A stretch of DNA of 64,000 nt, from contig NZ_NINW01000041.1 in the NCBI RefSeq assembly GCF_002188465.1, positions 124,001 to 188,000 on the forward strand, in the 5' to 3' direction. Source of the DNA: Pigmentiphaga sp. NML080357 (lineage in GTDB: Bacteria > Pseudomonadota > Gammaproteobacteria > Burkholderiales > Burkholderiaceae_B). The stretch's first letter is position 1. Each line of letters begins with the position of its first letter. The notes below the pieces were generated by a model. That model ran no database searches. It had not been told where the DNA came from and saw only the letters and a program-made list of their open reading frames with translations. The position numbers and the translations under genes were made by a program. Positions 31,987 through 33,938 of this stretch are shown here, in pieces.

Positions 31987-33060
31987 CTACTTCCCGCTGC
32001 TCGTCGCCACCAGGCGCCGGGCCTGCACCGCCTGCGCCAGGCGCTCGAGCACGCGCACCGAGGTGTCCCAGTCGATGCAGCCGTCGGTGATGCTCTGGCC
32101 GTACACCAGCGGCTTGCCGGGGACGAGATCCTGCCGGCCGGCGACCAGGTGGCTTTCCACCATCACGCCGATGATGCGGTTGTCGCCCGATTCGATCTGG
32201 CCCGCGACATCGTCGATCACCTGCGGCTGGTTCTCCGGCTTCTTGCTGCTGTTGGCGTGGCTGGCATCGATCATCACCCGCTGCGCCAGCCCGGCCTTGG
32301 CCATGTCCTGGGCGGCGGCCTCCACGCTGGCGGCGTCGTAGTTCGGAGCCTTGCCGCCGCGAAGGATGACGTGGCAATCCTCGTTGCCGTTGGTCGAAAC
32401 GATGGCCGACACGCCGCCCTTGGTCACGGACAGGAAATGGTGCGGCTGCGAGGCCGCCTTGATGGCGTCGACCGCGATGCGGATGTTGCCGTCGGTGCCG
32501 TTCTTGAAACCCACCGGACACGACAGGCCGGACGCCAGTTCGCGATGGACCTGGCTTTCGGTGGTGCGGGCGCCGATGGCTCCCCAGGAGACGAGGTCGG
32601 CGATGTACTGGGGTGTGATCATGTCCAGATATTCACACCCCGCAGGCAGCCCGCGGGCGTTGATCTCCAGCAGCAACTGGCGCGCGGTGCGCAGGCCCTT
32701 GTTGATGTTGAAGCTGCCGTCCAGGTCGGGATCGTTGATCAGCCCTTTCCAGCCCACCGTGGTGCGGGGCTTTTCGAAGTACACCCGCATGATGATTTCC
32801 AGCTCGCCGGCGAAGCGGTCGCGCTCGGCCTTCAGGCGGGAGGCGTATTCCAGCGCGGCCTCGGTGTCGTGAATGGAACACGGCCCGATCACCACCGCCA
32901 GCCGGTCGTCCATGCCGTGCAGGATGCGGTGCAAGGCTTCCCGGGCGTTGTAGACCGTGTCGGAAACGTCGGTGGTGCAGGGAAACTCGCGCATCAGGTG
33001 CGAAGGCGGAGCCAGCTCCTTGATTTCTCGAATGCGCAAGTCGTCGGTGTTGTGGGACAC
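31987..33060 (-). CDS. aroG: 3-deoxy-7-phosphoheptulonate (DAHP) synthase, class I
   Basis: 357 residues; first step of aromatic amino acid biosynthesis (PEP + erythrose-4-phosphate to DAHP). Family motifs: VVIGPCSIHDTEAALEYA, MRVYFEKPRTTVGWKGLIND, GARTTESQVHRELASGLSCP and GFKNGTDGNIRIAVDA, and the metal ligands in MIDASHANSSKKP. It matches the AroF/AroG/AroH family. The start is GTG at 33060 (VSHNTDDLRIREIKEL) preceded by AGGAGAGG. Upstream on the same strand are an intrinsic terminator and a Tyr/Phe-rich leader ORF, so expression is probably controlled by attenuation. Which amino acid inhibits the enzyme allosterically cannot be told here. Confidence 0.95.
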   Translation of the reverse strand: MSHNTDDLRIREIKELAPPSHLMREFPCTTDVSDTVYNAREALHRILHGMDDRLAVVIGPCSIHDTEAALEYASRLKAERDRFAGELEIIMRVYFEKPRTTVGWKGLINDPDLDGSFNINKGLRTARQLLLEINARGLPAGCEYLDMITPQYIADLVSWGAIGARTTESQVHRELASGLSCPVGFKNGTDGNIRIAVDAIKAASQPHHFLSVTKGGVSAIVSTNGNEDCHVILRGGKAPNYDAASVEAAAQDMAKAGLAQRVMIDASHANSSKKPENQPQVIDDVAGQIESGDNRIIGVMVESHLVAGRQDLVPGKPLVYGQSITDGCIDWDTSVRVLERLAQAVQARRLVATSSGK

Positions 33061-33144
33061 GATCCTCTCCTGGATTTCAGTGATGTCTGTTCGGCATGTT
33101 TGTCGATGGTTCGCCCCTTGCTGCATCGTCCAGGCACAAAAAAA

Positions 33145-33164
33145 GCCGCCAGGACGCTGGCGGC
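33145..33164 (-). terminator. Intrinsic terminator in the aroG leader (attenuator)
   Basis: On the plus strand GCCGCCAG (33145-33152), loop GACG, CTGGCGGC (33157-33164) is a perfect 8-bp stem with seven A on one side and six T on the other. For the minus-strand aroG transcript it ends in a U-run and lies between the leader stop codon (33185) and the aroG start (33060). Its 5' arm CCGCCAGCG is also complementary over 9 bases to a segment inside the leader ORF (33208-33216). Confidence 0.82.
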
Positions 33165-33184
33165 TTTTTTGGGGCAGGAATCCG

Positions 33185-33262
33185 TTAGATACGACGCTTC
33201 CTTTCCTCCGCCAGCGGCTTCGGAAAACCAAAAAAGTAAAAGTAGTAGGAAGCGTAGTTCAT
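33185..33262 (-). CDS. Tyr/Phe-rich leader peptide upstream of aroG
   Basis: A 25-codon ORF, beginning MNYASYYFYFFGF and then PKPLAEERKRRI. Eight of the first 13 residues are Tyr or Phe (four each). It lies directly upstream of an intrinsic terminator and then aroG on the same strand. The segment CGCTGGCGG (codons 16-19 region, 33216-33208) can pair with the terminator 5' arm, forming an antiterminator. ACGCTTCC in codons 3-5 can pair with GGAAGCGT near its end. This is the layout of a classical attenuation leader that senses Tyr/Phe-tRNA charging. No strong ribosome site precedes the ATG. It is recognised by structure and context, not by homology. Confidence 0.8.
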   Translation of the reverse strand: MNYASYYFYFFGFPKPLAEERKRRI

Positions 33263-33298
33263 GAAATATATCGTAGCAGGGGTCGGCCGCTTGGGCAA
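33263..33298 (-). promoter_or_regulatory. Candidate sigma-70 promoter of the aroG leader
   Basis: Read on the minus strand, TTGCCC (33298-33293), 17 bases, then TACGAT (33275-33270), then 7 bases to the leader ATG. If used, transcription would begin at or next to the A of the ATG, giving a leaderless leader-peptide mRNA. This would explain the missing ribosome site. Confidence 0.45.
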
Positions 33299-33377
33299 GT
33301 GGCAGGCACCTTTCTTGCGGACGCCCCCCGCGCGACGCGGCAGCCCCCCCGAGGCGCCGCCCCCGCGAGGAGCCCCC

Positions 33378-33938
33378 ATGGCCACGCATGTTTCTTCCTG
33401 GGCGCCGCCCCGCCGGCGGCGCTCCCGGCTCGTGTTCTATGCCCTGGCGGCCGCCGTCCTGTGGTTCGGCTGGCCCATCGTCCGGCCGGCGCTGGAGATC
33501 CCGCTTTACGGCCTGCGGCTGGCCGCGATGCCGGCGCCGGAGCGCCTGCCCGTGCCCGTCCAGGGCATCCGGCCGCGGGACCTGCGCGATACCTGGAACG
33601 CCCCGCGCGCCGACGGCCGGCGCCACGAAGGCATCGACATCTTCGCCCGCCGCCATACCGCCGTGCTGTCCGCGACCGAAGGCATCGTGACGCGGGTCGG
33701 CCAGAATTCGCTCGGCGGCAACACCGTATGGGTAATGGGCCCGGGCCGGCAAATGCACTACTACGCGCACCTGGAGCGCTATGCCGACGTGCGGCCGGGC
33801 CAGCGCATCCAGGCGGGGATGCCGCTGGGCTACGTGGGCAACAGCGGCAACGCCCGCGGCACGCCCCCGCACCTGCACTACGGCATCTATGCGCCAGGGG
33901 GCGCCATCAATCCCTATCCGCTCCTGGCTGGCCGTTGA
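33378..33938 (+). CDS. M23 family metallopeptidase (LytM-type), membrane-anchored
   Basis: 186 residues. A basic N-terminus and one hydrophobic segment (about 18-35) act as a membrane anchor or uncleaved signal. The peptidase domain has zinc ligands His83 and Asp87 (RHEGIDIFA) and the HxH pair His165/His167 (PPHLHYGIYAP), with GYVGNSGNARG between. All M23 zinc ligands are present, so it is probably an active peptidoglycan endopeptidase in the periplasm. GAGGAG precedes the ATG at 33378. Its 3' end overlaps the convergent PepSY gene by 32 bases. The upstream region holds GC-rich hairpins resembling the dispersed repeat. Confidence 0.9.
   Translation: MATHVSSWAPPRRRRSRLVFYALAAAVLWFGWPIVRPALEIPLYGLRLAAMPAPERLPVPVQGIRPRDLRDTWNAPRADGRRHEGIDIFARRHTAVLSATEGIVTRVGQNSLGGNTVWVMGPGRQMHYYAHLERYADVRPGQRIQAGMPLGYVGNSGNARGTPPHLHYGIYAPGGAINPYPLLAGR

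Follow-up and report, generated by a model that had tools for sequence, protein, structure and literature searches.

How is the entry step to the aromatic amino acids, 3-deoxy-7-phosphoheptulonate (DAHP) synthase, controlled at a locus where its gene, aroG, is preceded by a short open reading frame (ORF) rich in Tyr and Phe codons? A preliminary description of the 64,000-nt stretch of DNA analysed here (the window) had proposed that this ORF encodes the leader peptide of an attenuator. Our results make it highly probable that the aroG leader is a ribosome-mediated transcription attenuator responding to Phe/Tyr shortage, in an arrangement that most likely turns aroG on when Tyr or Phe runs short.

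Layout of the aroG leader

The elements of the locus are collected in Table 1. The gene called aroG in the preliminary description deserves this name, since its product scored 582.9 bits against the NCBIfam AroG model (cut-off 568). The leader ORF, with 4 Tyr and 4 Phe in its first 13 codons, had been described correctly to the base. Between this ORF and the gene lies an intrinsic terminator, the perfect U-tailed hairpin that had been announced: its arms, AAAAAAGCCGCCAG (33170-33157) and CTGGCGGCTTTTTT (33152-33139), read off the sequence as a 14-bp stem with a 4-nt loop and one more T, and the stem is also present in the computed fold (constrained folding). The gap from the terminator to the GTG of aroG is 77 nt. 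Note that the promoter and terminator pattern scan of positions 32900-33700 listed neither a terminator nor a promoter; the terminator was missed because the scan wants a T run after the stem, whereas here the T run is inside it.

Both alternative pairings of the preliminary description were exact. Segment 2a, CGCTGGCGG, is the reverse complement of segment 3, CCGCCAGCG, over 9 nt, and the antiterminator formed in this way shares the 5' arm of the terminator. Similarly, segment 1 of the leader, ACGCTTCC, is the exact reverse complement of GGAAGCGT (33201-33194) at the leader end, and this 1:2 stem could free or hold the antiterminator arm. Attenuators of the pheA/pheST type work by a three-segment logic. 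Four sequence features expected of a leader-peptide attenuator were found here: an ORF rich in codons for the pathway products before the gene, an intrinsic terminator between the two (from sequence and conservation), an antiterminator that uses the terminator 5' arm, and a stem that competes for the antiterminator arm.

Table 1. Elements of the aroG leader region, in window coordinates
Feature	Position	Strand	Basis or remark
aroG leader ORF, MNYASYYFYFFGFPKPLAEERKRRI	33262 (ATG) to 33185 (TAA)	minus	25 codons
Tyr/Phe stall block YYFYFFGF, codons 6-13	33224..33247	minus	sequence; predicted role
Segment 1, ACGCTTCC, leader codons 3-5	33248..33255	minus	pairs with segment 2b
Segment 2a, CGCTGGCGG, antiterminator arm	33208..33216	minus	pairs with segment 3
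Segment 2b, AGGAAGCGT	33194..33202	minus	pairs with segment 1, or AGGAA (33202-33198) with 33180-33176
TTCCT, possible second antiterminator helix, 5' of terminator	33176..33180	minus	constrained folds
Segment 3, CCGCCAGCG, common to terminator and antiterminator	33155..33163	minus	sequence, alignment
Intrinsic terminator (segments 3:4), hairpin with U tract	33138..33170	minus	sequence, conservation; predicted
-35 like hexamer TTGCCC	33293..33298	minus	sequence; 17-nt spacer to -10
Extended -10, TGCTACGAT, ends 7 nt before leader ATG	33270..33278	minus	sequence, family conservation
Predicted transcription start, at or next to A of leader ATG	33262	minus	inferred from promoter spacing, -1 pyrimidine, weak Shine-Dalgarno
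aroG, DAHP synthase, GTG start	31987..33060	minus	NCBIfam NF006723

A divergent ORF (33261-33938, plus strand), peptidase-like by eye, faces the leader and in its longest form extends over the promoter of the latter; the next ATG of this ORF is at 33378. Within the leader ORF, GGAGGAA (33207-33198, and also in relatives) resembles a strong Shine-Dalgarno sequence. In the window no start codon lies at the usual distance after this block, which may be only pairing material.

Conservation and pairing of the leader RNA

Since the fold energy of the leader is ordinary (z -1.03; 30 of 200 shuffles were as good), conservation was tested instead. A search for aroG gave a match in 242 of 250 genomes of the window's family, and the upstream DNA of the best-scoring match was taken for 90 of the 242, covering 31 of 43 genera (the family set). 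An ATG ORF rich in Tyr/Phe and a terminator-like hairpin were found before aroG in 82 of the 90 loci and in 29 of the 31 genera, and on the reverse strand in none of the 90. The 8 family loci in which they were missing are L051, of genus g15, and L061-L067, all seven of genus g27. GTG followed by VSHNTDD begins the AroG match in 68 of the 90 family loci.

The same arrangement was present in 75 of 80 named close relatives (the best 80 of at least 583, six of them duplicates of family-set loci), among them Bordetella, Achromobacter, Collimonas, Massilia and Stenotrophomonas, and never on the reverse strand; two of the five misses (L230 and L274) have just 48 and 172 nt of upstream DNA. At the level of the order, 80 loci were hand-picked among at least 233 of 300 genomes with an aroG match, one of them (L137) shortened by a contig end. 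ORF and terminator were seen in 23 of these loci, with at least one leader in 8 of 24 family labels, and never on the reverse strand or in five rounds of shuffling; in 57 of the 80 loci the search gave no leader with terminator, and for 16 of the 24 labels it gave none at all. Conservation of this kind, with zero on the reverse strands, argues that the arrangement of leader and terminator is not due to chance. The preliminary description had made its reading depend on the ORF and its pairings being kept in relatives, and they are: the ORF and terminator in the genera counted above, and the alternative pairings as given below.

We also built a covariance model, R1, from the leaders of the window's own family. 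It matched 77 of 300 genomes of the order at E ≤0.01, a number that is not a count of true sites since most matches weaker than E 1.3e-5 are uninspected, and 8 of 321 genomes of the class at E ≤0.001: the window's own, two of its order, L127 and four believable ones beyond the order. The class matches include leaders with FPKPLAEEGLRSP (L122 and L123, family f63), a tail that is also found in Stenotrophomonas and Xanthomonas leaders. DAHP synthase was present in all 24 further R1 loci (tblastn) and in 36 of the 37 loci fetched through R1 and the own-genome search; the sole exception, L127 (E 9.4e-4), looks like a chance match. When the window's own genome was searched with R1 for other targets, just the one site and a weak opposite-strand match at the same place were obtained.

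The pairings were scored in an alignment (A1) of 80 leaders, 72 of them distinct; L089 and L090 were dropped because the terminator pattern missed both. With structures taken from the window sequence, and with values that are counts over related sequences rather than probabilities, 94.4% of cells were paired over the 14 pairs of the terminator, 94.3% in the 9-bp antiterminator helix (2a:3) and 75.7% in the 1:2 stem. An antiterminator helix at least 8 long was found in 71 of the 80 leaders, compared to 9.4% with shuffled ORFs.

Covarying stems had been suggested as a check, and here the outcome was divided. The anti-antiterminator stem (1:2), which spans control codons of the leader, covaries on three of five measures and in a genus-swap test. 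Cells with a change on both sides number 39, where shuffles give 22.2 (sd 5.0), and the covariation score is 0.212, where shuffles give 0.131 (sd 0.010). The number of its pairs with a change on both sides (6) was reached by 103 of 500 shuffles and that of its further pair types (17) by 241 of 500, and slides of the stem by +2 and +3 exceed the unshifted stem in both counts. For the terminator and the antiterminator, pairs changed on both sides and further pair types were not above shuffles (reached by 109 and 114 shuffles in the former, and by 64 and 70 in the latter). When partners were swapped across 29 genera, the best duplex between segment 1 and the stretch from segment 2 to the terminator weakened from -13.8 to -10.9 kcal/mol, and none of 10000 permutations was as good. 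Helix 2:3 (-17.9 vs -17.1 kcal/mol) and the second antiterminator helix (-9.6 vs -8.6) pass this test by less than segment 1 does. Thus, of all the helices, the one to which the preliminary description came last covaries best. The second antiterminator helix, with just 30.2% of cells paired in the alignment, was placed by constrained folding and the genus-swap energy; like the promoter locked to the ATG and the reach beyond the family, it is absent from that description. A candidate covariation linking the Pro and Ala/Val codons of the tail was mixed (CCA with GTG in 10 genera, CCG with GCG in 4, CCA with GCG in 3, CCG with GTG in 4) and was rejected.

All 82 family leaders carry at least one Tyr, with a mean of 5.4 Phe and 2.5 Tyr per leader, and both Tyr codons (TAT/TAC) and both Phe codons (TTT/TTC) are used. 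In 30 loci, the leaders have 136 TTT and 20 TTC, and the aroG genes 19 TTT and 172 TTC. Since the two biases are opposite, the leader block has its own codon choice, for which a weakly structured stall region and slow decoding are both sufficient explanations. In addition, 8 of the 82 family leaders have a Trp codon (for example L013, L014 and L076-L078), and the leaders of Stenotrophomonas and Xanthomonas read FYFWYYF; because of these codons, such leaders may respond to Trp as well as to Phe and Tyr.

Promoter, translation start and proposed switching

The promoter of the family leaders is locked to the ATG. The pattern TGNTRNNNT ends 6-9 nt before it in 79 of the 82 family loci (not in L042, L045 and L057), with 6, 29, 36 and 8 loci at 6, 7, 8 and 9 nt, respectively; with the measured background of 0.0016 per position, chance would account for about 0.5 cases at the four places together. 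In the window, the -10 hexamer within TGCTACGAT is TACGAT. Counted from the leader ATG, the commonest bases of the family at positions -37 to -33 are TTGGC, and a pyrimidine (C or T) immediately precedes the ATG in 81 of the 82 loci. Mean pairing energies with the 16S tail are -2.3 kcal/mol for the leaders, -6.5 for the aroG starts and -2.9 for random stretches of upstream DNA. A pairing of -6 kcal/mol or stronger is seen at 62% of the aroG starts, in 12% of the random stretches and in none of the 82 leaders. Since the -10 is locked to the ATG and there is no strong Shine-Dalgarno sequence, the leader peptide of the family is probably made from a leaderless RNA, with a start site that we infer to lie at or next to the ATG. 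Leaderless mRNAs are reported in number in Burkholderia cenocepacia (PMC4603805) and Cupriavidus metallidurans (PMC7563307).

Of 33 loci from the Oxalobacteraceae, 19 have TATAGT at 22-27 nt from the leader ATG, upstream of it, 3 have it at 35-36 nt and one at 6 nt, and 10 lack it (L287, where the wrong ORF was picked, is left out of this count); the base at -10 is G in 59%. Judged by this spacing, many Oxalobacteraceae leaders apparently carry a short 5' UTR, which suggests that the leaderless form is a lineage trait and that the design does not need it. One could argue from these loci, and from the 21 of 82 family leaders with some Shine-Dalgarno-like 4-mer within 18 nt, that translation of the leader takes place on an RNA with a longer 5' UTR, made from a promoter farther up, attenuation being otherwise as proposed. 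This would concern the leaderless part only, and we consider it improbable for the family, given the -10 spacing, the pyrimidine before the ATG and the lack of any strong pairing with the 16S tail described above. Natural leaders with and without a 5' UTR offer a way to test how a leaderless start serves attenuation.

We propose that the switch works as follows. With transcription beginning at the leader ATG or right beside it, the leader would be translated while the RNA emerges. When charged tRNA-Phe or tRNA-Tyr is short, a ribosome should stall in codons 6-13 and mask segment 1, leaving segment 2 free; this could then pair with segment 3 before segment 4 is made, so that RNA polymerase would enter aroG. 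A ribosome that reaches the stop codon would instead mask segment 2b, allowing 3:4 to pair and ending transcription near 33138. With no ribosome loaded, the 1:2 hairpin would form first and then 3:4, with the same predicted end.

For the window's own nascent RNA, taken to the end of segment 3, constrained folding gave -26.9 kcal/mol when a ribosome occupied codon 7 and -19.4 when it stood at the stop codon. The naked leader already folds as the 1:2 hairpin (-22.8 kcal/mol) before segment 3 is reached, and the naked RNA up to segment 3 (-29.4 kcal/mol) is more stable than the stalled one. At equilibrium, the terminator is the favoured fold of the full-length RNA whatever the state (genus means 0.95-0.96). 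In the window's own RNA ending at segment 3 the antiterminator is at 0.99 naked, 1.0 with the ribosome at the stop and 1.0 stalled, and over the 80 leaders its means are 0.70 naked, 0.97 and 0.94 stalled, and 0.90 at the stop. Thus, equilibrium folding with ribosome positions did not separate the on and off states, either in the window's own sequence or in the 80 leaders, which implies that switching must be kinetic, set by the order of events.

Two other readings of the locus have to be weighed. The leader could encode an arrest peptide that senses free Phe/Tyr in the ribosome tunnel, as TnaC is described to do with free Trp, with its FPKPLAEE tail as the arrest motif; the conservation of PL[AV]EEG in a large part of the family set would fit this. 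However, the residues of this tail encode the bases that pair with segment 3, and in other families they differ (YSKPQAVGRR, LRPLADREG). Moreover, an earlier stop cuts the tail off in L089 and L090, before segment 2, while the GCGGAG-AAAGGACG block is kept though uncoded, so that it is the RNA and not the peptide that is conserved. We therefore read the tail as RNA kept for pairing. Induction by excess would also presumably have the wrong sign for a biosynthetic gene, and the arrest peptide appears very improbable. In the other reading, promoter, ORF and terminator form a free-standing gene for a small RNA or small protein, and aroG is transcribed from a separate promoter within the 77 nt before its GTG. 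The strength of the terminator, which wins at equilibrium, is in line with this, as is the report that the attenuator RNA and peptide of Sinorhizobium meliloti trpL act in trans (PMC7298713). Against it, no sigma-70-like promoter was listed in 32900-33700, although the same scan also missed the leader promoter; DAHP synthase accompanies nearly all the R1-fetched loci, and the signal codons fit the pathway of aroG. We give a free-standing gene very little credence too, and retain attenuation of aroG.

Relation to known leaders and wider reach

One of the closest systems described is the Corynebacterium glutamicum aroR leader before aroF, with Phe-Tyr-Phe, in which ribosome stalling at Phe limitation is reported to raise transcription (PMC11802643, PMC4046766) and Tyr availability to have no effect (PMC11802643). 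Both are aromatic leader peptides before a DAHP synthase gene, a likeness drawn by description; aroR, however, is actinobacterial and has three named aromatic residues, compared to a block of eight in the aroG leader. In Escherichia coli, pheA and pheST are described as attenuated by charged tRNA-Phe with a leader peptide, and the DAHP synthase genes as under repression by regulators with upstream binding sites (PMC11802643); pheA and pheST are different target genes, and the aroG leader mixes Tyr and Phe codons. For a proteobacterial DAHP synthase gene, attenuation is named for Shewanella aroF in a table row that reads 'attenuator sensing tyr-tRNA' (PMC2659441). Predicted attenuators of tyrA operons have also been tabulated, one of them in the gyrA-serC-pheA-tyrA cluster of Bordetella parapertussis (PMC1173090).

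Near-zero 5' UTRs have parallels as well. The attenuator RNA of S. meliloti trpL (rnTrpL/peTrpL) has its 5' end at the leader ATG, as predicted for the aroG leader; there, the codons are for Trp, the gene is trpE(G) and trans roles have been demonstrated (PMC7298713), while the aroG leader is known from sequence. The C. glutamicum ilvBNC attenuator, with a start one nucleotide from the leader start codon and an anti-antiterminator hairpin, resembles what is predicted for aroG in both respects and differs in responding to branched-chain amino acids (PMC11857589).

We found no paper on an aroG leader of the Alcaligenaceae type among open-licence full texts. aroG does not appear in the searched main texts of the transcript papers on B. 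cenocepacia, Burkholderia thailandensis and C. metallidurans, and the PMC5688073 supplement of 82 short 5' UTRs may list the leader RNA. In Rfam, the aroG leader scored 23.3 bits against Phe_leader (RF01859), below the gathering score of 55, and no Rfam family reached its cut-off in the window or in 20 relatives. Taken together, the aroG leader probably belongs to the known class of Phe/Tyr leader-peptide attenuators, and what sets it apart is its breadth and its locked, probably leaderless start. Control of the entry step appears to lie with ribosome stalling across a broad group, Bordetella, Achromobacter, Massilia and Stenotrophomonas included. If the model holds, small RNAs and small proteins are to be expected at a known location in many genomes.

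A broader and more tentative reading, which we think rather unlikely to hold as a whole, is that the aroG attenuator of Alcaligenaceae and some other proteobacteria is leaderless, with the promoter locked to the ATG and a whole ribosome loading on the first codon; its terminated RNA of about 125 nt would be a stable mini-mRNA, and either this RNA or the aromatic peptide made from it may also act in trans, in the way demonstrated for S. meliloti trpL. The regulator would travel with the gene. Alphaproteobacterial relatives of this aroG have a different promoter and the same near-zero UTR geometry. In these five loci, from records titled Mycobacterium sp. KBS0706 (L246), Kaistia (L260 and L279), Inquilinus (L276) and Devosia (L282), AroG is 73-79% identical to that of the window and is preceded by an aromatic leader and a terminator; gene and attenuator may have moved together into the Alphaproteobacteria. 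In four of the five, the promoter region has GTGACA, then TATATG 6-7 nt before the ATG.
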